Shown one piece after another: positions 29,997 to 45,810 of a stretch of 47,866 nt of DNA (its first letter is position 1; every line of letters begins with the position of its first letter). This DNA is from Candidatus Woesearchaeota archaeon (GTDB lineage Archaea > Nanobdellota > Nanobdellia > Woesearchaeales > GW2011-AR4): contig JACPDF010000029.1 in assembly GCA_016184145.1 (NCBI GenBank), positions 1 through 47,866 of the forward strand. The letters run 5' to 3'. A model generated the notes under the pieces. That model saw nothing but the letters and a program-made list of their open reading frames with translations. It had not been told where the DNA came from and made no database searches. The position numbers were made by a program, and so were the translations under genes.

Positions 29997-30054
29997 GATC
30001 TCTGGTAAGGTTTTGAAGTATTTAATGATTATCCTTGAGGATTTACATAGGGCA

Positions 30055-30066
30055 AATATTTATATA
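30055..30066 (+). promoter_or_regulatory. TATA box of the biotin carboxylase gene
   Basis: ATATTTATATAC lies about 28 nt upstream of the ATG at 30089 and decides that start over an in-frame ATG at 30035, which lies upstream of the promoter. Confidence 0.6.
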
Positions 30067-30088
30067 CGGCAAAACAATACTTTTGGCC

Positions 30089-31984
30089 ATGGCAAAGAAC
30101 GGAAAAATGAAAAAAAGCGCAATGAACAAGATAGTTGCGACCCTGAATAAAAGCCTCGTTCCTTTGGAATATTCCTATGGCAAGTTCAAAAAACTGACAA
30201 AACACGTTAAAAAAACAGCTCCTTTGGTTTATGGGGAAGTAGAGAACCTGATCAAAAGCAATGTTGTAACAGTAGAAAAGAGCGGCAGATTCTTCAAAAA
30301 AATCAATCTTGCAAAGTTTGGAGAGGCAATAACATCCAATCTTATCAGGAAAATCCCAAGCATGGACGAAAAAGAGCTGATGAAAATAGTCAGGGATAAA
30401 AAATCCCAGACATTCATTGATATGCTGGCAAAGGGCCTTAGCACAGGGGAAAAAGAATACGCGACATTGCCGAAGGAAAAAAAATTCAACAGGGTTCTTA
30501 TAGCAAACAGGGGAGAGATAGCATTAAGGATCATAAGGGCGTGCAGGGAATTAGGCATAGAGACAGTTCTTGTTTACTCAAACACAGATAAAAATACTCT
30601 GCCTGTAAGATTTGCAGACAGGGCTTATTGCATAGGGGCAGCTGCAAGCTACCTAGATATCCACAAAATAATAGGAATTGCAAAAAAGACCCAGTCGGAT
30701 GCAATACACCCGGGCTATGGGTTTCTTGCAGAAAATGCAAAGTTTGCAAGTTTATGTGAAAAGAACAAAATCAAGTTTATAGGGCCAAGGTCAAAGTCCA
30801 TCGAGCTTCTTGGGGACAAAGTAAGGGCAAAGAAAACAGCGATAAAGGCAAAAGTTCCTGTTATAGAAGGAACAAGCATGGCATTAAAAAACAAGAAGCA
30901 CGCATTAAAGACAGCCAAGAAAATAGGATACCCGGTCATTATCAAGGCAGCCGCCGGAGGCGGGGGCAAAGGAATGAGAATAGTAAGAGGCAAAGAAGAG
31001 CTTGGAAAAGCATATGACAGCGCGGAAGCAGAAGCCCATCTATCATTTAGGGACAGGACATTGTATATGGAGAAATATCTTGAAGGCCCAAGGCATATAG
31101 AATTCCAAATATTAGGCGACCAGTATGGAAATATAATCCATATGGGAGAAAGGGACTGCAGCATACAGAGGAAGCACCAAAAGCTTGTAGAAGAGGCGCC
31201 AAGCCCTTATGTCAATGACGAGCTGAGGGAAAAGATGGGGGATGCTGCAGTAAGAATAGCAAAGGCAGCAAAATATGAAGGCGCAGGAACTGTGGAGTTC
31301 TTGCTTGACAAAAACAAGAACTTCTATTTTATCGAGTCAAATACAAGGATACAGGTGGAGCACGGCGTGACAGAGATGATAACTGGAGTGGATTTGGTAA
31401 AGGAGCAGATAAAGATTGCTTCAGGAGGGATGATTGCCCTCAACCAGGACAGCATAAAGCTTGAAGGGCATGCAATAGAATGCAGGATAAATTCCGAGGA
31501 TCCTATGGCTGACTTTGCGCCTTCAACAGGCACTGTAGTCAATTACCTTCCTCCCGGAGGCCCTGGCATAAGGGTTAGCAGCATATGCCATTCAGGCTAT
31601 AAAGTGTCGTCTGATTATGATTCCTTATTATCGCTGCTGATATGCCACGGAAGCACAAGGCATGAAGCTTTGTCGAGGATGGGGAGGGCTCTGCGTGAAT
31701 ATGTCATAGAAGGCATAAAAACAACAATACCCTTCCATCTTGCAGTGCTGCACAACAAGAATTTTGTAAAAGGGAATGTTACAACATCATTCATACAAAA
31801 GAACAACATAATCCAGAGTGTCAAGGATTATTGCTTTGATAAGGAAAAAGAGCTGGCAAAAGAGCAGAAAGTCATCCTGGTAACAACCGCAATAGCAAGG
31901 TTTATGGAAAAGAAGCAGGGCAACAACAAGCCAAATCCATGGGTGGCGGCAGGGAGGCAGGAGCTCATGGAAAATGAATCATGA
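30089..31984 (+). CDS. accC: Biotin carboxylase with N-terminal extension
   Basis: The enzyme uses ATP and bicarbonate to carboxylate biotin on a carrier protein in the cytosol. From 30089 it has 631 residues. The biotin carboxylase fold starts near residue 133 (RVLIANRGEIALRIIRA). The glycine-rich ATP loop (AAAGGGGKGMR), the HQKLVEEAPSP strand and the catalytic NTRIQVEH region follow, where the usual Pro after EH is Gly here. The Arg of GHAIECRINSED is present. A late SDYDSLLSLLI replaces the more usual YDSMIGKLI. The first 130 residues are basic and of unknown family, which is unusual. It overlaps birA by 4 nt. Partners are the BCCP and broken carboxyltransferase at 37418-39392. Confidence 0.88.
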   Translation: MAKNGKMKKSAMNKIVATLNKSLVPLEYSYGKFKKLTKHVKKTAPLVYGEVENLIKSNVVTVEKSGRFFKKINLAKFGEAITSNLIRKIPSMDEKELMKIVRDKKSQTFIDMLAKGLSTGEKEYATLPKEKKFNRVLIANRGEIALRIIRACRELGIETVLVYSNTDKNTLPVRFADRAYCIGAAASYLDIHKIIGIAKKTQSDAIHPGYGFLAENAKFASLCEKNKIKFIGPRSKSIELLGDKVRAKKTAIKAKVPVIEGTSMALKNKKHALKTAKKIGYPVIIKAAAGGGGKGMRIVRGKEELGKAYDSAEAEAHLSFRDRTLYMEKYLEGPRHIEFQILGDQYGNIIHMGERDCSIQRKHQKLVEEAPSPYVNDELREKMGDAAVRIAKAAKYEGAGTVEFLLDKNKNFYFIESNTRIQVEHGVTEMITGVDLVKEQIKIASGGMIALNQDSIKLEGHAIECRINSEDPMADFAPSTGTVVNYLPPGGPGIRVSSICHSGYKVSSDYDSLLSLLICHGSTRHEALSRMGRALREYVIEGIKTTIPFHLAVLHNKNFVKGNVTTSFIQKNNIIQSVKDYCFDKEKELAKEQKVILVTTAIARFMEKKQGNNKPNPWVAAGRQELMENES

Positions 31985-32703
31985 TGATAAACTTCAAATT
32001 CTATAATTATAAAACCCTTGATTCAACAAATAATAAAGCAGGAGAGCTTGTAAAGAAAGGCTATTATGATGTTGTTGTTATAGCGGAGAGGCAGACAAAA
32101 GGCAAAGGCCGCTTTAAGAGAAAATGGTTTTCCGATCCTGGCGGGTTGTATATGACAATAAGCCTAAAGGCTGATGACATTGATAAAACAAAATATCTTA
32201 CTTTCATTGCAGCCCTTTCTGTTTCAAAAACAATAAGAAAGCTGGCAAGATTAAGTGCTTTGGTCAAATGGCCCAATGACGTCCTGATTGACGGCAGGAA
32301 AATCTGCGGGATACTGACAGAAACAATCTCCGGCAGGGAGAATTACGCATTAATCGGGATAGGCCTAAATATAAACCAAAAGACATTCCCGGAGAGCATA
32401 TCCAATAAAACCACCTCATTAAAGCTTGAAACCAATAAACGGCATAATATCAAAAAAATCTCCGAATCAATAATAAAAGAATTCAACAAACTTTATAATT
32501 ACTACAGCAAAAAAAATTATGGAAAGATAATCAATGAATGGAAAAAATATTCCCACACGCTTGGCAGGAAGATAAAAGCAAAGACGGTAAATAAGACCTA
32601 TATCGGAAGAGCAATTGGCATAGATAACGACTGCAGCCTGATATTAAGGCTGGACAACGGAAAAATCCAAAAAATAATTGAAGGGGACATTTTTTCTGTT
32701 TAG
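31981..32703 (+). CDS. birA: Biotin--protein ligase without DNA-binding domain
   Basis: The enzyme activates biotin as biotinyl-AMP and attaches it to the carrier lysine, here presumably K93 of the BCCP. It has 240 residues. GKGRFKRKWFSDPGGLYMT (adenylate loop and active site), ALVKWPNDVLIDGRKICGIL and a C-terminal SH3-like domain (GRAIGIDNDCSLILRL) are all present. No N-terminal helix-turn-helix exists, so it is a ligase only, not a repressor. It overlaps accC by 4 nt and ends convergent with the thioesterase gene. Confidence 0.93.
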   Translation: MMINFKFYNYKTLDSTNNKAGELVKKGYYDVVVIAERQTKGKGRFKRKWFSDPGGLYMTISLKADDIDKTKYLTFIAALSVSKTIRKLARLSALVKWPNDVLIDGRKICGILTETISGRENYALIGIGLNINQKTFPESISNKTTSLKLETNKRHNIKKISESIIKEFNKLYNYYSKKNYGKIINEWKKYSHTLGRKIKAKTVNKTYIGRAIGIDNDCSLILRLDNGKIQKIIEGDIFSV

Positions 32704-33125
32704 TTCTGCAGGGCTTTTCTCAGCTCATCAGGAATCCCGGCTGATTTCATCGTTTTCTTGTTGACAAAAACATTCACAGTATGGCCTTCTGCCAGTAATT
32801 TGCCATTTTTCTTATTTACTATTTCATAATTAAACTTAATGCTGCTATTGCCAATATTATCTATCGTTGTTTTTATTATTATAATGTCATTATATGCTGC
32901 CGGTCCTCTGTAATTGCATTTTACCTCGACCACTGGCGCTATGAGGCCCTGCTTCTCAAAATCAGCATAGTCAAATCCTAATTGCCTTAGTATTTCTGTG
33001 CGCCCTATCTCAAACCATTTCAAATAGTTGGCGTAATAAACTACGCCTCCATGATCTGTGTCATTAAACTTTTTATTGGAACAGCCAAGCAGCCTTGAGC
33101 GGATTATAAAACAGGGCTTCGGCAT
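32700..33125 (-). CDS. 4HBT-family acyl-CoA thioesterase (YbgC-like)
   Basis: The protein has 141 residues from the ATG at 33125, a normal hot-dog fold size. A longer frame to 33245 would run through the shared promoter and into the aminotransferase gene. The active-site motif is NDTDHGGVVYYANYLKWFE, with the catalytic Asp, and a long helix follows. Members hydrolyse acyl-CoA thioesters; the substrate here is unknown. It shares a palindromic TATA with the aminotransferase. Confidence 0.82.
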   Translation of the reverse strand: MPKPCFIIRSRLLGCSNKKFNDTDHGGVVYYANYLKWFEIGRTEILRQLGFDYADFEKQGLIAPVVEVKCNYRGPAAYNDIIIIKTTIDNIGNSSIKFNYEIVNKKNGKLLAEGHTVNVFVNKKTMKSAGIPDELRKALQN

Positions 33126-33154
33126 TATTTCTTTTTGACATTTAGTTTCGGATA

Positions 33155-33164
33155 TATTTAAATA
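33155..33164. promoter_or_regulatory. Palindromic TATA box shared by divergent genes
   Basis: TATTTAAATA is a perfect palindrome, centred about 27 nt before the aminotransferase ATG (33187) and about 35 nt before the thioesterase ATG (33125). It may drive both genes. Confidence 0.5.
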
Positions 33165-33186
33165 AGGCTCAAAAGTACAACATCTT

Positions 33187-34257
33187 ATGCCAATCAGCGA
33201 TATGCAAAGGTTATCTCCATCGATGTTTATCGGAGTAAGGGGCAAAGGAATAATTTCATTCGGCTCAGGCCAGCCTGATTTGCCGCCCCCGAAAGAAGTG
33301 CTTTCATGCGCTGCTGATTATGATGATTTTAAGTATGGGCTCATTGCGGGGCAGACAGATTTAAGGGAAGGGCTTGCCCACGAATTCCGGAAATTCAATG
33401 CCTCAAAAGATGATTTTGTCGTGACTAACGGTGCTTCTGAAGCGCTTGATTTGACATTCAGGGCAATTGGAAATCCCAAAGACAAGATACTTCTGCATGC
33501 ACCTTACTACTATTCTTACAAGCCGCTTATTGAGCTAAACCACATGACTCCCTTATTTGTCAAAACAGACAAGGGCAAGATAGACATTGACGACTTTGCA
33601 GACAAGGCGCATGAAGCCAAAGCTGTTTTAATCAACTCCCCTTCCAATCCAACTGGCAGAATACAGGAAATTAAAACGCTTAAGCGCATTGAGAAAATCA
33701 CCCACGACCTTGGCATTCCATTAGTTTCTGACGAGGTTTACAAAGACCTTATTTACGAGAGAGAAAATTACATGCTTTCAGGAAGCCATGTAGTTACGAT
33801 AAACTCTTTTTCAAAGACATTTGCAATGTGCGGAGCCAGAGTCGGCTATCTTTATTCAAATGACAGGTCTATTGTTGATAAAGCAATAGAATTGAAAACA
33901 CACGCATCAATGAACACAAATGTTCTCGCCCAGAGAATGGCTTATTACGCGTTAAAAACCCCGAAAGAATTTGTTGAATCACAGGTTAAGATATGGAAGA
34001 GCAGAAGAGACATAATTTATGAAGGGATGTGCAAGCTTGGCCTTGATGTATGGAAGCCGGAAGGCGCATTCTATATTCTGCCAAAAGTCAAAAGCCCGAG
34101 AGATTTTGTGTGGAATATGTTCAAAAAGCACAAAGTGATCACTTACCTTGGAGAATGGTTTGGGGCTAAAGACAGGGTGAGGTTCTCATATGCCCTTGAT
34201 GCCGGCAAGATTGAAGAAGGATTAAAAAAAGTTGAGACTTATTTGTCTGGCCGTTAA
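33187..34257 (+). CDS. Class I/II PLP-dependent aminotransferase
   Basis: The protein has 356 residues. PLP-binding landmarks are NGASEALDLTF, SPSNPTGR (151-158), SDEVY (181-185) and the Schiff-base lysine K210 in SFSKTFAMCGARVGY. RVRFSYA near the C-terminus gives the substrate-carboxylate arginine. It is an aspartate/aromatic aminotransferase-like enzyme; the exact donor and acceptor are not decided by sequence. It is probably leaderless from the palindromic TATA. Confidence 0.88.
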   Translation: MPISDMQRLSPSMFIGVRGKGIISFGSGQPDLPPPKEVLSCAADYDDFKYGLIAGQTDLREGLAHEFRKFNASKDDFVVTNGASEALDLTFRAIGNPKDKILLHAPYYYSYKPLIELNHMTPLFVKTDKGKIDIDDFADKAHEAKAVLINSPSNPTGRIQEIKTLKRIEKITHDLGIPLVSDEVYKDLIYERENYMLSGSHVVTINSFSKTFAMCGARVGYLYSNDRSIVDKAIELKTHASMNTNVLAQRMAYYALKTPKEFVESQVKIWKSRRDIIYEGMCKLGLDVWKPEGAFYILPKVKSPRDFVWNMFKKHKVITYLGEWFGAKDRVRFSYALDAGKIEEGLKKVETYLSGR

Positions 34258-34306
34258 TGAGCAAGATTTAAAAAGAGGCTTATTAATTTGATAGTGTGGT
34301 ATATTA

Positions 34307-34540
34307 ATGGCAATATTAGAGCAAATACCATTCCTTAAAAGAATGCTTGAAATGGGCTATACAGTAGCCTTGGTTATTTTAATAAGCGGCATTGTGGGCT
34401 TAGTCCTGGCATACCCGGTAAAGTTGCTGTGGAACTTTGTGTTTGGGGCTATACTTACAATAAATGTGCTTCAGGCATGGGCGCTAAATGTTTTGATGGG
34501 AATTCTTTTCGGCAATAAGGCATCAAACGGCAGGAAATAG
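34307..34540 (+). CDS. Small membrane protein, possibly BofA-like
   Basis: This 77-residue protein has two hydrophobic segments (about 18-45 and 48-68). The arrangement GLVLAYPVKLLWNF with later glycine- and asparagine-containing segment resembles the SigmaK-processing BofA family, which also has archaeal members of unknown function. The match is weak. A TATA-like ATTTAAAAAG lies about 36 nt upstream. It is convergent with ecfT. Confidence 0.45.
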   Translation: MAILEQIPFLKRMLEMGYTVALVILISGIVGLVLAYPVKLLWNFVFGAILTINVLQAWALNVLMGILFGNKASNGRK

Positions 34541-34541
34541 C

Positions 34542-35261
34542 TTAAATAATCAATAATACAACAATAATCAATATCACTAATGAAAGATAATCCTTAACTC
34601 TTAGTCTTATTGGATTGAAATAAGAGACTCTCGCTCCATTATAATTTCTTGATACCAGCGCATCGCTGACAGCAGAGGCGCTGCTGAAAATCCTGTCCAA
34701 AAGCTTTATAACGAAAACTTTTACGTTCCTCAGCTTCTTTATGTTTCCCAGTCTTGCACTTTGCGCATCTCTTATTCTGTCAGCATACAGGAACAAAGCA
34801 GGTATAAACCTTATGGTCAAGGCTATCAGCAAAGAAAAGTTTCTGGTGTTTATCCTGATTGTTTCCAATGGCTTCAATAATCTCTCAATAGCCGTTATAA
34901 GATTGGTTATTGTTGTTGTGAATGTCAGTATAGATGCTATAGCTATAAACAGGATAAATCTCCATATTGTTAAAATGCCTCTGTTTAAGTCATTTCTTGA
35001 AAATATTATGTACATAAGCAATATAAAAAAGAAGATGAAGAAAAACGGCCTCAGGTTTCTCAATAAAAAAGAAAATTTTAACCTTGACAATACAATCAAT
35101 AATAAGAGAAATAGCGAGAAAACAGCCATCCGGGAATAAGAATCAATGATGAAAGCTGCGCTGCTAAGAACAGCGACAGATATTATCTTTATTCTTGGAT
35201 CCAGCTTGTGCATTATTGAATTTCTAAATACATACTGCCCAAAGGTTAATTTTCTAAACAT
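34542..35261 (-). CDS. ecfT: ECF transporter transmembrane subunit EcfT
   Basis: The integral membrane scaffold of an energy-coupling factor transporter, 239 residues. It has about five hydrophobic segments, the FGQYVFRNSIMHKLDPRIKI N-terminal segment typical of EcfT, and the two cytosolic coupling-helix motifs near AQSARLGN and ALVSRNYNG; these are weaker than the usual Ala-Arg-Gly signatures. The ATG at 35261 overlaps the end of the ecfA frame by 8 nt. With BioY and EcfA it should import biotin. Confidence 0.85.
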   Translation of the reverse strand: MFRKLTFGQYVFRNSIMHKLDPRIKIISVAVLSSAAFIIDSYSRMAVFSLFLLLLIVLSRLKFSFLLRNLRPFFFIFFFILLMYIIFSRNDLNRGILTIWRFILFIAIASILTFTTTITNLITAIERLLKPLETIRINTRNFSLLIALTIRFIPALFLYADRIRDAQSARLGNIKKLRNVKVFVIKLLDRIFSSASAVSDALVSRNYNGARVSYFNPIRLRVKDYLSLVILIIVVLLII

Positions 35262-35952
35262 CAAGACCAGCCTTCCTTAAAATATGCTTGTTCAATTTTG
35301 ATTTCTTATCATCAAAAGCAATCTTGCCTTTATTCAGAATTATCACTTTTTCAGAATCTTTTGTATCCTCAATAATGTTAGTTATCAATATTACCCCAAT
35401 TTTGCCTTTTTTGTTCAATTTTCTAATTATTTCCATGATATTCTTCTTATTTTTACTGTCCAGCATTGTCGTAGGCTCATCAAAAACAATATATTCGGGA
35501 CTCATCACTAGGATTCCTGCAAGGGCAACAAGCTGCTTCTGCCCAAGAGAAAGCATGTTGACATTCTTTTTTGCAAGATTTTCAATGCCAAGCTCTTTCA
35601 TTACTCTAGTTATCATGCTTCTCATTCTTCTTGTTTCTATCCCCAAATTTTCCAGGCCAAAGGCGATGTCCTCTTCCACTATAGAGTAAATAAGCTGGTC
35701 TTCGGGATTCTGGAACACAAAACCTACCTTTTTTCTTATGCCTTCCTGATTTTTTTTTTAGTCTATGTCCTCTACAATGACTGATCCTTTTACAGGCAGA
35801 AGCAAAGCATTAAGGTGTTTTGCCAAGGTTGTTTTTCCTGAGCCGTTTGCCCCTATTATTGCCGTATAACTGCCTTTTTTTATCTCTAAATTAATATTTT
35901 TCAAAATAAGCTCATCCTCATACCCAAAGCTCAAGTTCCTTATTTCTATCAT
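35254..35952 (-). pseudogene. ecfA: ECF transporter ATPase (EcfA) with in-frame stop and no H-loop His
   Basis: The reading frame covers a complete ABC ATPase but is cut by one TAA at 35758-35760, after IVEDID and just before a run of ten A. Downstream, in the same frame, come KKVGFVFQNPEDQ (Q-loop), LSLGQKQLVALAG (signature) and YIVFDEPTTMLD (Walker B). Walker A (GANGSGKTT) is upstream of the stop. The switch histidine is Asn (LITNIIEDT), so the ATPase would be abnormal even if read through. TAA is not a pyrrolysine codon. It lies between the redoxin and ecfT with 1-nt spacing upstream. It may be decayed, or an error at the homopolymer. Confidence 0.85.
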
Positions 35953-35953
35953 C

Positions 35954-36712
35954 TTATTCAAGCGAAAAAGAATATACCCTTAAATTTCCATTTGTTGTTA
36001 ATGTTAATTTTTTTGTTTCGCTGCTTTTTAATTCTGCAATTTTGTACAGTTTTGGCGTGCTTATCTTAAAAGTTTTTATAAACCTGCCATTTATTTTCAC
36101 ATAAACCTTAAGAGGCTTTCTGTTTTCCGATTCCGCGACAAAATTTATTTTTTTGCCTTTTGCCAACAAGACTAATGAGCCGTTTACTTTAAGAAATTCA
36201 TCATTTTGCCTATATTTTCCATCAATGTAAATAAATCCAAATCTCAGCTTATTTTTTATTTGAGAAATTTTTCCTTTCTTATTTTTTCCAGCGTATACTG
36301 TTGGAAATCTGGTGTATTTTGGCTCTTTATTGAATATGCATCTTGCTTTAATCCCAAGATGCTTTCTGACAGAGCTTTCCAATGCCTTATAATTTCCTTC
36401 CCCAATATGCTTGTATACTATTTTACTGTTTTTTATCAATAATTGCGATGGCCAGAAATTTACTTTTAGCTTATCTATTAATTCTTTATCTTTGTCAATT
36501 TTAACCGGAAACCTTATTTTATTCCGCTTTATTGCCTCAGATATATTGCCTTTATTTTTCTCAAAGCCCCATTCCGGAACATGCACAATAACTGTTTTTA
36601 AGCCATATTTACCGTATTTGGCATTCAGTTTTTTAATGTACCCTAATGACCTTATGCAGTTCATGCAGCTATAGGAAAATATATCCAACAATTCCAGCTT
36701 GTAGGCGCTCAT
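35954..36712 (-). CDS. DipZ-like thioredoxin-fold protein
   Basis: The 252-residue protein begins with a redoxin domain: FSYSCMNCIRSLGYIK carries the C16-x-x-C19 active site, followed by VIVHVPEWGFEK and FWPSQLLI with a cis-Pro at P88, matching the extra-cytoplasmic redoxin part of DipZ/CcdA fusions. The C-terminal half (about 130-252) is a beta-rich domain like the carbohydrate-binding-like end of DipZ. There is no signal peptide or membrane segment, so unlike DipZ it seems cytosolic or stays soluble. It overlaps bioY by 4 nt (ATGA) and ends 1 nt before ecfA, so it is embedded in the biotin transporter operon. A link to transporter redox state or to biotin chemistry is not known. Confidence 0.7.
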   Translation of the reverse strand: MSAYKLELLDIFSYSCMNCIRSLGYIKKLNAKYGKYGLKTVIVHVPEWGFEKNKGNISEAIKRNKIRFPVKIDKDKELIDKLKVNFWPSQLLIKNSKIVYKHIGEGNYKALESSVRKHLGIKARCIFNKEPKYTRFPTVYAGKNKKGKISQIKNKLRFGFIYIDGKYRQNDEFLKVNGSLVLLAKGKKINFVAESENRKPLKVYVKINGRFIKTFKISTPKLYKIAELKSSETKKLTLTTNGNLRVYSFSLE

Positions 36713-37296
36713 TTCATGTATCTTCTAATATCAACCTTATCGGCTATGTAAGCAGCTATCAGCAGCTTTATTGTATCTCCTATTATGAAAGGCAGCACCC
36801 ATCCCATCATTATTGCCGCGAATCCCAGGCCAGTAACAACCACGCCCCATCCAGCGCCTAATGCGTAGATTATTATCGTACCCGCTATCATGGCTAAAAC
36901 ATAATCAAGGTACTTTGGACTTTTTCTGAGCTGCAGTATTTTTCCTATTGCAAATGCCGCTATGAAATAGCTGAATAAATAGCCTCCTGTAGGCCCGAGC
37001 AAAGCCCCTATACCAGAGCTGCCGCCTGCGAAAACAGGAAGCCCTAAAGCGCCTACAACAACATAAAGTATCATGGACAATGCTCCATAATAAGGCCCAA
37101 GCATTGCTCCTGACAACAATACAACTAATGTCTGCAATGTTATCGGAACTGGAGTGAAGCCTAATGGTATCTTAAAAGGCGCTACTGCTGCCAGCAATGC
37201 AGCGAACAACGCCGCAAAAACCAGAGGCTTGAGATTATTAATGGATTTTACATTTTTTTCCGATTCTGACTTTTTTATTGTTTTCTTTTTTGCCAT
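36709..37296 (-). CDS. bioY: Biotin transporter substrate-binding subunit BioY
   Basis: The integral membrane S-component has 195 residues and about six hydrophobic segments. GFTPVPITLQTLVVLLSGAMLGPYYGA and the following GLPVFAGGSSGIGALLGPTGGYL are the BioY signature. The ATG at 37296 is preceded by a strong ribosome-binding site (GGAGGTG); a GTG five codons earlier is the wrong start. It opens an operon with the DipZ-like redoxin, ecfA and ecfT. Solitary BioY proteins can take up biotin in other organisms, so uptake might survive even with the broken ATPase. Confidence 0.92.
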   Translation of the reverse strand: MAKKKTIKKSESEKNVKSINNLKPLVFAALFAALLAAVAPFKIPLGFTPVPITLQTLVVLLSGAMLGPYYGALSMILYVVVGALGLPVFAGGSSGIGALLGPTGGYLFSYFIAAFAIGKILQLRKSPKYLDYVLAMIAGTIIIYALGAGWGVVVTGLGFAAIMMGWVLPFIIGDTIKLLIAAYIADKVDIRRYMK

Positions 37297-37334
37297 TAAA
37301 AACACCTCCACTAAACATTAACTTAAAATCATAT

Positions 37335-37350
37335 TTTTTATTTAAGCTTA
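37335..37350 (-). promoter_or_regulatory. Probable promoter of the bioY operon
   Basis: TTAAATAAAAAATATG-like AT-rich sequence on the minus strand lies about 45 nt upstream of the bioY ATG; the ribosome-binding site GGAGGTG at about 37304-37310 indicates a leadered mRNA. Confidence 0.35.
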
Positions 37351-37417
37351 ATTATTTGCATTTCCTCTATTTTCAATGAATTAATTTTATTATTGCATTA
37401 TTTTTAATGGTTTGTTT

Positions 37418-37801
37418 CTATTCTATTATTATCAAAATATCGCCTTTGTTTACCCTATCATTCTTTTTTACTTTTACTTCTTTTATTGTCCCTGCTTTTG
37501 GCGCAGTGATGTTGTTCTCCATCTTCATTGCTATTAATTTTACTAATGTATCCCCTTCCTTCACTGTGTCCCCTTCCTTGACGCTTACCTCATATATTGT
37601 GCCAGGCAATGGGGAAGCAATTGTGCCGGTTGCAGATTCAGCATGCTTTTTCTTTAGCGTCTCAAAAATAGCCGCTTTGGAATGGCCTGTTTCCACTTCA
37701 TAGACGTCTCCTGCGCAGTGTATAAGGATCCTTCCATCTTCGGTTTCCTCAACCTTGACATGGTATTCCTCCCCATCGACGTTAATGGTTAGTTCTTCCA
37801 T
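37418..37801 (-). CDS. Biotin carboxyl carrier protein (BCCP)
   Basis: The 127-residue carrier has a variable N-terminal beta part and the biotinyl domain in the C-terminal 75 residues. The lysine to be biotinylated is K93 in LIAMKMENNITAP. It passes CO2 between the biotin carboxylase and the carboxyltransferase. It lies downstream of the carboxyltransferase remnant and 122 nt upstream of bioY, with an AT-rich promoter region (ATTTTTAATTATAATAAG, about 37825-37842) before it. Confidence 0.9.
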   Translation of the reverse strand: MEELTINVDGEEYHVKVEETEDGRILIHCAGDVYEVETGHSKAAIFETLKKKHAESATGTIASPLPGTIYEVSVKEGDTVKEGDTLVKLIAMKMENNITAPKAGTIKEVKVKKNDRVNKGDILIIIE

Positions 37802-37847
37802 TGTTAATTAGTAGTTTTTATTATCTTATTATAATTAAAAATCATTC

Positions 37848-37924
37848 CCTAAATTTAGGCTCGGCGCATTACGGCCTCGCATCATTGGGCTGGAAATTTG
37901 CCCAACCGCCCCCATTGTGGGCGG
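37848..37924. ncRNA. GC-rich structured element of unknown nature
   Basis: In an otherwise AT-rich gap, three stems lie close together: palindrome CCTAAATTTAGG (37848-37859), TTGGGC/GCCCAA (37885-37890 and 37900-37905) and CCGCCC/GGGCGG (37906-37911 and 37919-37924). On the minus strand it lies between the carboxyltransferase end and BCCP. It could be a terminator, a small RNA or a small mobile repeat. Confidence 0.35.
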
Positions 37925-37950
37925 CACTAAACATCTGCCCTAATTGAACT

Positions 37951-39392
37951 CTATAAAGGAATATTGCCGTGCTTTTTGGCTGGCCTTCTTTCTCTCTTGG
38001 TTAATAGCATTTCCAGACAGCTTATGAGGATTTTTCTTGTGTTCTTTTCCTCTGCTATTATGTCAACTTTCCCGTGCTTTGCCGCGTCATAAGGGTTTAA
38101 GAAACGCTCAGTGTATTCCTTTACCCTCTGCTGCCTTGTTTTTTCCGCATTTTTTCCCTGCAATTCTCTCCTGTGTATTATATTGACAGCCTGCTCTGCT
38201 CCCATGACGGCAATTTCAGCATTAGACCATGCAATTACCTTGTCATAGCCCATTTCTTTGGAAACTAAAGCAATATATAGGCATACAATACTTTTGCGCC
38301 GTGCCTTATTATGCCATTATGCTCCTGGTCTACTCCTGGAAGGTAGCCAGTAACATCAACAAAGTTTATTATCGGTATGTTAAAGCTGTCGCATAATCTT
38401 ACAAACCTTGCAATTTTATCTGATGAGTTTATGTCCAGGCAGCCTGCCAAAACCTGCGGCTGATTGGCAACTATCCCTACCGTGTTGCTGTTTAGCCTTG
38501 CCAATCCTATTACTGCATTTTGGGCGTATAAAGGCTGAATCTCAAGGAACGTATTTTTATCCATGACCTCTTCTATTACCCCTTTTACATCATAGACTTT
38601 TTTAGGGTCTTTAGGGACAATTTTTGCCAAATTATTATTTAACCTGTCAGGCTTGTCGTTTGTCGGTATGAAATTGGGGTTTTCCATGTTGTTTTGGGGC
38701 AAATAAGAAAGCAATAGTTTTACCAGCTGGAAGCATTCTTTCTCGTTTTCTGCAATGAAGCTTGCCACTCCTGACTTTTCGTTGTGGACTAAAGGTCCTC
38801 CTAATCCTTCAAAGTCTATTTTTTCCCCCAGCACTGTTTTGATTACATCCGGGCCTGTTATGAACATGTTGCTTATTTTTTTTGTCATGAAGATGAAGTC
38901 AGTTAAAGCTGGCGAGTAAACAGCTATGCCAGCGCAAGGCCCGAGAATCACTGATATTTGGGGTATTACGCCAGAGGCAAAAGTGTTGTTTTTGAAGATT
39001 CTTCCTCCTGTGTCCAGGGCATTGACGCCTTCCTGGATTCTTGCCCCTCCGGAATCAAATAAACCTATAACAGGGCAGCCAATCTTCAATGCGTGCTCCT
39101 GAATTTTTGCTATCTTGATGTTGTGCATCTCTCCCATACTTCCCCCCATGAAAGTAAAATCCTGGGCAAAGACGCAGACAGGCTTTCCGCTTATTTTTCC
39201 ATAGCCCGTTATAACGCCATCTCCAGGCTGCTTTTTTTGCTGGAGGTCGTAATTAACAGAATCAAGCTCCATTAATTCATCTAATTCTGTAAAAGTGCCT
39301 TTATCCAAAAGCAAATCTATCCTTTCCCTTGCTGTCAATTTGCCCTTGTCATGCTGGGCTTTTACAGCTTCCTTGTTGTTGTTTTTTGCCAT
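37951..39392 (-). pseudogene. Biotin-dependent carboxyltransferase (MmdA/PccB type), deletion plus frameshift
   Basis: Intact relatives have about 510 residues. The first 372 codons (39392 down to about 38272) read well: ARERIDLLLD, GDGVITGYGKISGKPV, FMGGSMGEMH, FDSGGARIQEG, DVTGYLPGVDQEHNGIIRHGAKVLYAY. Here the frame ends. The rest resumes in another frame with IALVSKEMGYDKVIAWSNAEIAVMG and runs to RPAKKHGNIPL, the normal end. About 20 residues (the SEATVPKITVVLRKAYGGAY-like region) are missing at about 38270, with a net frame change. That region forms part of the second active-site half, so the product cannot be functional as sequenced. It may be a real deletion or an assembly fault. It probably had its own promoter (TTTTTAAACA, about 39430-39440, minus). 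Confidence 0.88.
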
Positions 39393-41246: not shown

Positions 41247-41960
41247 TCAGAATAATTTGAAACCACGCCCTTCTTTAGTCCCAATAATGCCACCTTCTAC
41301 TATCTTAAAGATAATTTCTTTTTCTGACTCGATTGAGCGGTGCATCTTTATAATTGCCCTCCTGTTTCCAGCAGGAGTTAACTGCAATTCTATCAGGCAT
41401 TTGCTTGCATACCTCAATAAATCACCGCCTACCATGTTTATCTTGTCCTTTTCCTCAAAGTCAGCATAAACCTGGTTGGTAATTAAGACAGGAATGCCTT
41501 TTTTTGATGCTATTTCCTTGAGGCAGGAAAGCTGGTTCGCAAGCTCATTGTTCACTTCATAGACCTCCTCGGTTTTTCCCATTTCAAGCCTGTAAAGCAT
41601 GGCTATCGAATCAACAATGACAAGGCCTACCTTATTATTAATAGTCTCCTTCAGCTTCTCAAAGGTTTTTTTCTGCTCTTCAAAAGAATTTGGCCTGAAA
41701 AATGCCATATTGTTTATTGTCTTTAAATGATCTAGATTAATGGAGCTGCATATCTGCTTAAACCTTTCAACAGAAAAATTGTTTTCAGTGTCAATGTAAA
41801 TGACTTTTTTGCCTAAACGTGCGGTATTTGTCGCGCAGAGTATGCACAAATTAGTCTTGCCAGAGCCGGAAGGTCCGTAAATGGTGGTTATTATATCAGT
41901 TTCGTAGCCTCCATCCAATAATTTGTCAAGTATCTTGCTGCCAGTGGGAAGTTTTTCCAT
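41247..41960 (-). CDS. radB: Recombinase paralogue RadB
   Basis: The protein has 237 residues and the RecA/RadA core only, without the N-terminal helix-hairpin-helix domain, as expected for archaeal RadB. Walker A is GPSGSGKTN (29-37), and Walker B is in VGLVIVDSIAML. RadB assists RadA in recombination and repair in other archaea. A TATA element within the 3' end of the upstream transferase gene (ATTTATAATTA, minus, about 41976-41986) lies about 25 nt before the ATG, so it can be transcribed separately from the glycosylation operon. Confidence 0.92.
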   Translation of the reverse strand: MEKLPTGSKILDKLLDGGYETDIITTIYGPSGSGKTNLCILCATNTARLGKKVIYIDTENNFSVERFKQICSSINLDHLKTINNMAFFRPNSFEEQKKTFEKLKETINNKVGLVIVDSIAMLYRLEMGKTEEVYEVNNELANQLSCLKEIASKKGIPVLITNQVYADFEEKDKINMVGGDLLRYASKCLIELQLTPAGNRRAIIKMHRSIESEKEIIFKIVEGGIIGTKEGRGFKLF

Positions 41961-41979: not shown

Positions 41980-43365
41980 CTAATTATAAATCTTTTCGAA
42001 TATATAATATTTACAAGAGCCTTTTTCTGCTGAGCGCGCTAACGAAAAAGTCTCCGTCAATAAATTGATAAAATCGGAGTGCTTTTTGCTGCAGCCCTCA
42101 TCATGACTGGGGCAAGGCAGTATGTCGCACGTATTTATTAAAACCGCACCGGCATTTCCAATATTCCTTTCCAGCTGGTCTATCCTTTCTGAGCCATACA
42201 GCGGGTAATAGACAAGCTCATCAGCCTTCTTGTCTGAAAAAGCTATGAATGCGGGATTGGATATCCAAAGACTGCCAGCATCAGCCTCCCCACTATACTC
42301 ATAAAATAAGTCAAAACCGTCCTCGTAGCTATCAAACCTTAAATCAGGCAAACTCAAAGCAAAAAAGACAGCCAGCAAGGAATACAAAACCAAATTCCTT
42401 CTCTTCTTCAGCAGGCCAGCAAAATAAACCATCCCATAGCTTGCCAGGATGTAGAGCAATGGCAACACGGGTATCAACAAACGCATTTCTTTGTGCATTG
42501 CTGTATTATAGAGCATGAAGCTCCCTAGGAAAGCAAAAGCCAGGGCATATCTGCCAAAGTTGTATCTTCTCAGGGCAAATACGAGCCCAAGAATAGAAAA
42601 GACAGCAAGGAAGTTTTCCTTTACAATGGAAACAAAATAAAAATAAAGCGGCTGATTGAAAACCCAGCCAGTATACTTTGTCATGAAGGCCTGCACGGCA
42701 AAAGGATAAAATAGGCTACCATAGAGGAAATAGTTGAATATTAGGTAAGGAACCACGGGAATGAGGAAAAATACACAGAAATTTAAAAAAGCCCTTACAT
42801 TCTCCTTGTTCCTTGCTGTTAAATAAAGCAACAATAAAAACAGCGGGAAAGCGATAAACAGCTGGAAAAATCTCGTCATAAAGGCTATCCCAAGGAATAA
42901 TCCGGAGTAATTATACAGCCTTCTTATGAAAAAATAAAGCCCCAGCAAAACAAAAAATGTTGACGGGATTTCAGTCTGCATTATGTTTGAAAACACGAAA
43001 AATGTCTGCGATAATGACAGGAAAAATGACGCAATGAAAGCGATTTTCCTGTCAAAGAGGCGCGAAGCAATTATATATACCAAAAGAACAGTTCCTAAGC
43101 TAAACAAAATTGCCGTTATTTCTCCAAACAAGATTGGGTTGAGGCCGAGCTTCCAGTAAAATCCCAAAACAATGGGCCAGAGCAAAGGCCTGGAGGCTTC
43201 CCATAAACCAACGCTGCCAAAGGAATAAATATACTTCCCCATGCCAAGAAATACTGCTGAATCCCACCATATGTCATGGTGGACAAGCAAGGAAGATAAA
43301 TAAACAATAGAAATCAAAATAAAGAAAATAAAAAATGCTGTGTTTTTCCTCAACCACCGCTCCAT
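41980..43365 (-). CDS. PMT/ArnT-type (GT39-like) membrane glycosyltransferase
   Basis: The protein has 461 residues from the ATG at 43365, about 26 nt from a TATA element (ATTAAATATTA, minus); an ATG six codons upstream (43383) is possible. About ten hydrophobic segments are followed by a soluble C-terminal end of about 80 residues. The first outside loop has the acidic motif HHDIWWDSAVFLGMGKYI, where the catalytic Asp of lipid-phosphate-sugar transferases lies. Such enzymes transfer sugars from polyprenyl-phosphate carriers to proteins or lipids outside the cytosol. It is the third gene of an operon with a GT2 and a membrane thioredoxin. Confidence 0.82.
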   Translation of the reverse strand: MERWLRKNTAFFIFFILISIVYLSSLLVHHDIWWDSAVFLGMGKYIYSFGSVGLWEASRPLLWPIVLGFYWKLGLNPILFGEITAILFSLGTVLLVYIIASRLFDRKIAFIASFFLSLSQTFFVFSNIMQTEIPSTFFVLLGLYFFIRRLYNYSGLFLGIAFMTRFFQLFIAFPLFLLLLYLTARNKENVRAFLNFCVFFLIPVVPYLIFNYFLYGSLFYPFAVQAFMTKYTGWVFNQPLYFYFVSIVKENFLAVFSILGLVFALRRYNFGRYALAFAFLGSFMLYNTAMHKEMRLLIPVLPLLYILASYGMVYFAGLLKKRRNLVLYSLLAVFFALSLPDLRFDSYEDGFDLFYEYSGEADAGSLWISNPAFIAFSDKKADELVYYPLYGSERIDQLERNIGNAGAVLINTCDILPCPSHDEGCSKKHSDFINLLTETFSLARSAEKGSCKYYIFEKIYN

Positions 43366-43396
43366 AAAGGATAAGTGCGGCAATTAATATTTAATC

Positions 43397-44077
43397 TTAT
43401 TGGCATATTGAATGCTCCCTGTACCTGCACAAAATATCTGCAACCTGATTCTTGTTCTTCAGCCCGCAGTAGGTATCCTCTTCCACAACAATGCACGGGA
43501 AATCTGTAATATTATAAAAAAGCCCCAGAGTTCTTACAGAAGCCAGGTCCAAGTTGGAATCAAAGGAGAAAAGCGCGATCTCCGGGTCTATCTCCTTGTT
43601 CAAGTCTGTCAGCACAAAAGCCTGCGCATCGCAGTCAGGGCAGTCTTCCTTCTTCTTGTAAAAATACAATATTACTGTCTGGTTAAAGTTGCATTGCTCT
43701 TTCATGCTCTTGAGCATTGAAAAATAAACGACCTCATTCCTGTTAAACTTGCGCTTCTGCTCCTGATAGAATGGGTCTATGCTAAACTGCTCCGTAGCCT
43801 CCCTGTACCTGTCTATTTTAACGCCAGTATCCCACAGGGTCTTGTCCATGTAAGACAATGTATTTTCCAGCGACAGGCATGTTATATTGCCTCCAAACAC
43901 ATCATTCATCAATGAAAGAGCCTGTATCTCCTGGTACTCATCAAGAATTTCCTCCATCCTGCCAACAACAGCATTTTCCCTCTGGGAATTAAGGTAAAAA
44001 TTTAGGGAATAGATGGAAGCCAGCAGCAGCACAGTTATTACAGCTGCGTAAACAAAAATGTTCTTTTTGATCACCAT
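43397..44077 (-). CDS. Membrane-anchored thioredoxin-fold protein with CPDC site
   Basis: The 226-residue protein has one N-terminal membrane segment (about 8-29), then an outside domain. Residues about 130-210 look like a thioredoxin fold: VILYFYKKKEDCPDC gives a strand followed by C146-P-D-C149, and TDFPCIVVEE gives the cis-Pro (P194) strand. An extra N-terminal helical part of about 100 residues and further cysteines (C67, C129, C195, C204, C217, C225) are present. It overlaps the GT2 by 7 nt and lies 13 nt before the PMT frame, so all three should be made together. A disulfide-exchange role on secreted, glycosylated proteins is inferred, with the Ost3/Ost6 subunits of oligosaccharyltransferase as an analogy only. 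Confidence 0.7.
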   Translation of the reverse strand: MVIKKNIFVYAAVITVLLLASIYSLNFYLNSQRENAVVGRMEEILDEYQEIQALSLMNDVFGGNITCLSLENTLSYMDKTLWDTGVKIDRYREATEQFSIDPFYQEQKRKFNRNEVVYFSMLKSMKEQCNFNQTVILYFYKKKEDCPDCDAQAFVLTDLNKEIDPEIALFSFDSNLDLASVRTLGLFYNITDFPCIVVEEDTYCGLKNKNQVADILCRYREHSICQ

Positions 44078-45306
44078 CTAACCTTTCTCCTCATAAGGAC
44101 AATAAAAAAAGATGCAAGCCAGAAGGCCTGGTACATAAAGAAAAGAATAAAATACCCAAAGTACAAAGATGGCTTTCTCTCTAAACTGCTTCTTGCTATG
44201 CCTAGGCTGTAAGTCACCAAAAGTATCATTCCAAGGATGCCAGACAGGCCAAAAAACAGGAACATGCTTACTGCAAGCAGGTCAAAGTCAAATGTCATAT
44301 TGGAGAAAAAATTGTAGTTGGTCAACGAATAATACGAAAGATTCCTGAATATGTTTGAGAACAGCAGATAGGTGGAAAATACAAACAGCCCAAGCCCGGA
44401 GGCTATGAGGGCATAATTGAAAGGGATGAAATAGCCAAAAAGCCCTGTCTTGTTCTTGGCCAGAATATCCTTGTGCTGCCATAGCGTGAGCAAGGCTCCA
44501 GAATACCAGCGTCTTCTCTGCCTGTACAGCCCTTTCATGTCGTGAGGCGTTACTGTGTGCACGGCAGTAGACATGCAGTTTGCGATCTTGTAGCCTGATT
44601 TGTGGATTCTATAGGCAATCTCAAGGTCTTCTGTTATATTTTCAGGATCAAAATAACCTATCTTATCCAGCAGTCTTTTCCTGTATACCGAGAAAGGGCC
44701 TGGAGTGACATGGACGCAATTAAACAAGGAAAAAATCTTTAAAAACAATGACAGGCCGAGTATATACTCAAGCCTTATTATTCTCTGCAGGAAGTTTTTT
44801 GCAGACCTTACCTCGACAGAAACTGTTACAGAGCCTACCTTCTCGTCTTTGAAATAAGGGAGTGTTTTCCTTAATATGTCGCTTGGCACTATGGTGTCAG
44901 CGTCCATGCACGCAATATAGCTTCCTTTTGCTAGGGAAATCCCTTGGTTTAATGATTTGGCTTTGCCCTTGTTTTTGCTGTTGTCAACAAGAATGATATT
45001 TTTGCCTGTGTGCTCCCTCACTATATCTGCTGTCCTGTCTATGCTGCCGTCATTTACAATTATGACCTCAAAAAGGCTTTTTGGATAGTCTATAAGCTTC
45101 AATGACTTAATGCAGTCTGCTATAGACTCCTCTTCATTATAAGCAGGCACTATTATGCTTATTTTAGGAAGCTTGTCGTTCTTTCTGAACTCAGGGGAAT
45201 CATAAAGCTTTTTCCTGTTGTAGAAAAGAGCCAGCATGAAGACTACCACAAAATAAGTGGACAAAAACCACACAACATGCACCAATATAGCGTAGTAAAT
45301 GTTCAT
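44071..45306 (-). CDS. GT2 membrane glycosyltransferase
   Basis: The protein has 411 residues. An N-terminal membrane segment (about 8-29) precedes a cytosolic GT-A domain with IIVPAYNEEESI (51-62), VNDGSID, the metal-binding DAD (135-137), the catalytic TED (225-227) and RQRRRWYSG (262-270). Three further membrane segments close the protein. These motifs fit processive-type enzymes such as hyaluronan/cellulose-like synthases or polyprenyl-sugar synthases. It is the first gene of the operon, with a TATA-like GCTTATATACC (minus, about 45339-45349). It might make the lipid-linked sugar that the PMT-type enzyme uses. Confidence 0.85.
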   Translation of the reverse strand: MNIYYAILVHVVWFLSTYFVVVFMLALFYNRKKLYDSPEFRKNDKLPKISIIVPAYNEEESIADCIKSLKLIDYPKSLFEVIIVNDGSIDRTADIVREHTGKNIILVDNSKNKGKAKSLNQGISLAKGSYIACMDADTIVPSDILRKTLPYFKDEKVGSVTVSVEVRSAKNFLQRIIRLEYILGLSLFLKIFSLFNCVHVTPGPFSVYRKRLLDKIGYFDPENITEDLEIAYRIHKSGYKIANCMSTAVHTVTPHDMKGLYRQRRRWYSGALLTLWQHKDILAKNKTGLFGYFIPFNYALIASGLGLFVFSTYLLFSNIFRNLSYYSLTNYNFFSNMTFDFDLLAVSMFLFFGLSGILGMILLVTYSLGIARSSLERKPSLYFGYFILFFMYQAFWLASFFIVLMRRKVRW

Positions 45307-45357
45307 TTTTACAATTCTGTTAAAATGTGTGGCTTTTGGTATATAAGCTTTATGCGG

Positions 45358-45810
45358 CTATTTATTCTTTGTCTTTATGAAATCCCCAATTGTGAAGCCT
45401 TCTGCCTTTTCATGCCTTAATTCCTCATGCTTTTCCTCGTATTCCTCTATAAGCTTAATTCCAAGGGCCTTTTGCAGCTTTTTTGCAAGCTCTATATTAG
45501 GATGAAAATTTCCTGATTCGAGCTGATGTATCAAGGATTCTTTCTCATTGAGCTTTTTTGCAAAGTCTTTTTGCGTCAATCCAAGCTCTTCCCTTCCTTT
45601 TCTTATCTTTTCAGCATAGTTGTCAACTATTATATCCATTGCCTCAGGCTTTTCTTCTGCCTTCTTCTGCCTTATTTTTTCCACTTCATGCTGCTTCACT
45701 GCACCAAGAATCTTTCCAAACCTGCTGCAGTTCTGGCATACAGTAAGCACTGCTCCTTCTACCTCTGCCTTGAACATACTTCCGGAAGAGCCGCACATGT
45801 CGCATAGCAT
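45358..45810 (-). CDS. mbf1: Multiprotein bridging factor aMBF1
   Basis: The 150-residue archaeal MBF1 has an N-terminal zinc ribbon (CDMCG and VCQNC), a charged linker and a helix-turn-helix domain (about 65-120; [26 protein letters not shown]). It is a transcription-coactivator-like protein in archaea. The ATG directly follows the YjbQ stop, so the two are co-translated from one mRNA. Confidence 0.93.

Follow-up and report, generated by a model that had tools for sequence, protein, structure and literature searches.

A conserved pairing of a membrane GT2 glycosyltransferase with a predicted outward-facing thioredoxin-fold protein in DPANN archaea

The window analysed here (the whole stretch of DNA under study) is a contig of 47.9 kb from a DPANN archaeon of the Woesearchaeota type, whose source genome of 1.02 Mb is 97% complete. 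ORF calls and Pfam matches gave, on the minus strand, the gene order MBF1-like, GT2, TRX, PMT_2 and RadB-like (Table 1). The three central genes had been described in a first-pass annotation as overlapping or tightly spaced, and all of them were found in place, with a 7-bp overlap between GT2 and TRX and a gap of 31 nt between TRX and the start codon of PMT_2. Short GT2/TRX overlaps were seen again in close relatives. For PMT_2, the ATG at 43365 is favoured as the start codon over the TTG at 43383.

Table 1. Features of the glycosyltransferase-thioredoxin locus, in window coordinates.
Feature	Position	Strand	Basis
MBF1-like HTH protein, conserved flank, outside the pathway	45358..45810	-	Pfam, loci of relatives
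TTATATA, putative archaeal TATA box, about 34-40 nt ahead of the GT2 start	45340..45346	-	by eye
GT2 membrane glycosyltransferase, 411 aa	44071..45306	-	ORF; Pfam Glycos_transf_2, E 1.5e-37
7-bp overlap between the end of GT2 and the beginning of TRX	44071..44077	-	sequence
TRX, CPDC thioredoxin-fold protein, 226 aa	43397..44077	-	ORF, profile, model, Foldseek
TRX CPDC active-site codons, residues 146-149	43631..43642	-	computed from the gene start
PMT_2 (GT-C) integral membrane glycosyltransferase, 461 aa	41980..43365	-	Pfam PMT_2, E 2.2e-11
RadB-like RecA-family ATPase, conserved opposite flank, outside the pathway	41247..41960	-	Pfam, loci of relatives

GT2 is predicted to consist of an N-terminal membrane helix, a cytosolic GT-A domain and C-terminal membrane helices. 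Its catalytic motifs are D86, D135xD137, E226D227 and Q263RxRW267; the DxD, ED and QxxRW motifs are thus complete, and they are invariant across 21 sequences. The best NCBIfam match was PgaC_IcaA (E 3e-52), at 178 bits far below the cut-off of 422, and comparison of the GT2 profile with solved structures in the PDB gave chondroitin synthase, 6yv7 (E 7e-31) and BcsA/cellulose synthases. In Pfam and NCBIfam, only GT2 and GT2-related families were found, with no match to phosphoglycosyltransferase families. Because the motifs are complete, and because the nearest curated model and the solved structures agree with them, GT2 is classed from its sequence as a membrane-embedded QxxRW-type transferase of the cellulose-synthase-like motif group, with predicted activity at the inner face. 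The earlier description of this protein as a cytosolic sugar-priming enzyme was therefore abandoned. The poly-N-acetylglucosamine synthase PgaC/IcaA is likewise a QxxRW GT2 with membrane helices; however, it has PgaD/IcaD as its accessory partner, whereas the present GT2 adjoins a thioredoxin protein. Entries 6yv7-6yv9, which we take to be a cellulose-synthase-like archaeal mannosyltransferase and which reportedly come from a 2020 study by Gandini et al. (cited in PMC8993221), resemble GT2 as an archaeal membrane enzyme of the same family, and to our knowledge no thioredoxin partner accompanies that mannosyltransferase.

The product of TRX has one predicted membrane helix at its N-terminus (residues 7-25), followed by long helices up to about residue 129 and then by a thioredoxin domain at about 134-219, which carries the CPDC motif and a cis-Pro at 194. 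Its profile matched solved thioredoxins (E 2e-6), the AlphaFold2 model (mean pLDDT 80) has the order beta-alpha-beta-alpha-beta-beta-alpha, and a Foldseek search with this model placed thioredoxins on top (E 5e-5). A thioredoxin fold, which the first-pass annotation had proposed for the CPDC protein, is thus supported at the level of prediction. No curated Pfam or NCBIfam family reached its cut-off for the TRX of the window. Weak matches to Pfam TraF were obtained with 22 of 40 TRX members, the window protein falling under the gathering score; TRX has a weak likeness to TraF/TrbB and other exported thioredoxin-like proteins, but it sits in a different gene context. Because positive charge precedes the sole hydrophobic segment, the C-terminus is predicted to face outward, and the earlier placing of the thioredoxin on the outside of the cell is supported to this extent.

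Residues C67, C129 and P194 are invariant in all 63 TRX members that reach those columns. CxxC is present in 53 of the 63, with varying intervening residues; it has been lost in lineages with tandem copies or with a fused form of 700 aa, and also in 2 of the 20 TRX loci examined outside the order. Since some lineages keep GT2-TRX after loss of CxxC, it cannot be that redox activity is essential everywhere. The source genome encodes VKOR (G000:C17:22253-22621) and CcdA-like proteins, possible redox partners that make outward thiol chemistry plausible, but VKOR was found in only 29 of 59 relatives sampled, and its absence from about half of them speaks against the proposal made below. Several cysteines in exported-looking proteins of the window are consistent with such chemistry, though they are no test of it. 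No conserved cysteine was found on the predicted outward segments of GT2, so the enzyme's own thiols are no obvious target of TRX. Positions 1-1443 of the window encode an incomplete protein, cut off by the contig end, that has 19 cysteines and looks lysozyme-like by eye in its C-terminal part; it is a possible client of an outward oxidoreductase. At four other loci (L037:7970-10087, L038:8163-10268, L039:7479-9581 and L040:6389-8515) TRX is without CxxC and is extended by a C-terminal fusion of about 470 aa; the L037, L038 and L040 proteins gave no Pfam match, and the one in L037 gave no solved relative.

The assignment of the third gene to the PMT-type transferases held, on its sequence: the PMT_2 match scores 44.7 bits against a Pfam gathering cut-off of 26.1, and the profile matched solved mannosyltransferases and ArnT, which places it among the GT-C enzymes. 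D35 and C425 are invariant in 20 PMT_2 sequences, and C425 lies together with C418, also conserved, in a C-terminal domain predicted to face outward. At L062:7868-10360 a PMT-type protein that adjoins TRX is fused to a C-terminal domain resembling DUF2334/polysaccharide deacetylases, and similarly long PMT proteins occur in L066 and L071. In many families of the order, two further GT-C proteins of about 490 aa are encoded upstream in the cluster by genes A and B (for example in L037, L053, L062 and L091; the A and B families of L091 had no Pfam match above cut-off). When compared with solved structures, the profiles of A and B matched STT3 and AglB for the most part. These are their best solved relatives, and the likeness lies in the GT-C class; A and B differ from AglB/STT3 in their length, in the absence of the WWDYG motif from 25 A and 25 B aligned sequences, and in being missing from the window locus. 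In the window lineage two canonical AglB genes are found elsewhere in the source genome. A model of A, built from three sequences, reached a pLDDT of 47 and was set aside. A conserved cysteine pair is present in 30 of 31 A proteins, and one cysteine in 42 of 43 PMT proteins; a check for joint loss of these cysteines and the TRX CxxC found none.

Conservation of the neighbourhood was then surveyed. With a single-protein query, TRX was found in 92 genomes among 118 relatives; a profile search of a phylum-wide sample of 327 genomes recovered it in 286, among them 206 of the 235 good ones. With the window's own genome excluded, 91 relatives had a TRX hit, and in 79 of these GT2 is the immediate upstream neighbour on the same strand; so it is in 19 of 20 loci that were sampled beyond the order, in other families of the class. 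These two counts rule out a chance adjacency. PMT is directly downstream of TRX in 38 of the 91, so the trio named in the first-pass annotation is conserved, the GT2-TRX part of it far more than the PMT part. A GT-C gene of some kind lies within a few genes of TRX in 53 of 60 loci of the order and in 14 of the 20 outside it; the STT3-like pair upstream is missing from 15 of these 20. A frozen chromosomal block could not by itself account for the pattern, since in the same 20 loci RadB is near TRX in none and MBF1 in 7, and GT2-TRX remains.

Two other arrangements occupy the same locus. In L157-L163 and L170, which belong to the window's family, a cassette of GT2-GT2-PMT is found without TRX, and this counts against the GT2-TRX proposal set out below. 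In L164-L169 and L171-L173 the locus holds a Yip1-domain protein, a divergent TRX, a Thioredoxin_4 protein and two GT2s, often with the same PMT, so that thioredoxin-fold proteins meet GT2s there a second time. The divergent TRX of L164 has CSIC, and the DsbA-like Thioredoxin_4 protein of this alternative cassette is apparently without CxxC.

Correlated evolution was assessed from Kimura distances between loci, with partial correlations controlled for the flanking MBF1 and with Mantel tests. The GT2-TRX partial r was 0.73 over all and persisted within the separate sequence groups, at 0.70 in tier 1, 0.70 in tier 2 and 0.78 for tier 2 restricted to the order (Mantel p 0.001); with RadB as the control it was 0.61 over all and 0.80 in tier 2. 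A and B formed a second tight pair (partial r about 0.76-0.78). By the same measure TRX showed little correlation with PMT (0.06-0.15, the upper value in tier 2 of the order) and none to speak of with A (0.01, tier 2 of the order). Raw identities had given higher TRX-PMT values; the corrected distances and the within-clade test were preferred. Linked genes that are transferred together can also yield such correlations when their products do not touch, and the flanks control for this in part; Mantel tests do not wholly correct for common descent, and distances become noisy as they approach saturation. Because the distances of TRX follow GT2, and not PMT or the STT3-like GT-C proteins, the conserved unit, as judged from sequence comparison, is the GT2-TRX pair, with PMT and the STT3-like proteins as looser partners.

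The pair also seems to have been exchanged as a unit, because one and the same set of 14 genomes holds the closest TRX and the closest GT2, and because G001, the second genome of this genus, carries the other type of both genes (27% and 36% identity) beside a PMT that is relatively close (42%). The closest-TRX and closest-GT2 sets each form a clade with support 1.0. We attribute the one extra GT2 in the latter clade split to G003, in which a contig end truncates TRX and which contributed no loci to the label set.

We propose that TRX is an outward accessory subunit of GT2, redox-active in most lineages, and we give this proposal about an even chance of being right. GT2 would draw sugars from a donor in the cytosol and probably transfer them onto a lipid carrier or onto a growing surface glycan. 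TRX would be its dedicated single-pass partner, presumably in a physical complex, with the helical segment and the thioredoxin domain on the outer face, and its CxxC would make it a thiol-disulfide oxidoreductase in most lineages. Its clients would plausibly include the cysteine-containing outward domains of the neighbouring GT-C transferases, as well as surface proteins during glycan attachment. PMT_2, or the STT3-like GT-C pair in other families, would use the lipid-linked sugar outside. The topology, the complex, the redox activity and the nature of both glycan and acceptor are what we infer here, and a link to surface glycosylation is supported for a thioredoxin predicted to face outward.

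The first-pass annotation had envisaged a coupling of disulfide formation to protein glycosylation, analogous to the oxidoreductase subunits of oligosaccharyltransferase but built from different parts. The different parts are borne out. Ost3p/Ost6p and MAGT1/TUSC3 share with TRX a membrane-anchored thioredoxin fold, a CxxC and a link to membrane glycosylation enzymes; however, Ost3p/Ost6p have four C-terminal membrane helices and partner STT3, whereas TRX has one N-terminal helix plus a helical segment, and its proposed partner is GT2; STT3-like genes adjoin it in many loci but show no correlated evolution with it. When 40 TRX members were compared with Pfam, OST3_OST6 did not figure in the top 25 families by number of matches, and it gave no match with the TRX of the window. 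Since both the family match and the membrane layout fail, TRX is no member of Ost3/Ost6. Ost3 homologues have been reported in Asgard archaea (PMC10307638). As for the coupling itself, TRX is tied to membrane glycosyltransferases throughout the order and class, and this part stood; a subunit placed at the protein-glycosylating transferase is not favoured, because TRX tracks GT2 (0.7-0.8) rather than PMT or the STT3-like proteins and because most loci outside the order do without the STT3-like pair.

A role like that of Ost3/Ost6 by function, in which TRX would hold acceptor proteins by their cysteines and thereby let a GT-C enzyme (PMT_2, A/B or AglB) glycosylate them before folding, has a precedent, since the eukaryotic MAGT1/TUSC3 bind the cysteines of their clients as mixed disulfides during the action of STT3B (PMC7563561). 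The redox-type CxxC of most TRX members and the frequent GT-C gene near TRX would fit it, as would the A/B pair beside the unit in many families, with A matching STT3/AglB best. However, A and B are without WWDYG, canonical AglB genes lie elsewhere in the source genome, and a family match of TRX to Ost3/6 was not found. Above all, TRX covaries with GT2 and not with A or PMT, and because the correlation points to GT2 instead of the GT-C enzymes, we regard this role as unlikely. A TRX that is structural only, a scaffold or stabilising subunit of GT2 whose CxxC forms a stabilising disulfide without turnover, would agree with the GT2 correlation, with the long helices ahead of the thioredoxin domain, and with the retention of the gene pair and of Cys67/Cys129 where CxxC is lost. 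Against it, the CxxC is kept by most members with varying inner residues and an invariant cis-Pro, like that of active oxidoreductases, and we doubt this reading to a similar degree. It seems quite improbable that TRX works as an exported oxidoreductase on the cluster's own enzymes, maturing them at the outward cysteines of A and PMT, and that its linkage to GT2 is historical. The nearly universal cysteines of A and PMT speak for such a role, but they remain where CxxC is lost, and both adjacency and correlation single out GT2 and outlast the loss of other neighbours.

The accessory-subunit proposal can be carried one step further, tentatively and with more doubt than belief: GT2-TRX might be a redox-coupled membrane glycosyltransferase of two components, present in most of this DPANN phylum and evolved independently of Ost3/Ost6. 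The outward TRX would then link the making of glycan on the inner side of the membrane to thiol chemistry, or to the handling of acceptors, on the outer side. If so, Ost3/Ost6 would be joined by a second, independent case of glycosylation coupled to an oxidoreductase. A literature search, mostly without subscription journals, found no account of the pair. Most DPANN archaea have not been cultured, and little is known of their cell surface. The occurrence of the pair in most genomes of the phylum, with a TRX outside the curated families, marks a core surface process, and two small membrane proteins would, if the two-component reading is true, offer a testable handle on coat building in these archaea.

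Elsewhere in the window, a biotin cluster extends over positions 30035-39392; all names except that of the carboxyltransferase come from reading the sequence. It includes genes for biotin carboxylase-like (30035-31984), biotin protein ligase-like (31981-32703), BioY-like (36709-37311) and biotinyl carrier-like (37418-37801) proteins. The carboxyltransferase (Pfam Carboxyl_trans) is split into two ORFs, 37951-38253 and 38265-39392, perhaps by an assembly frameshift.
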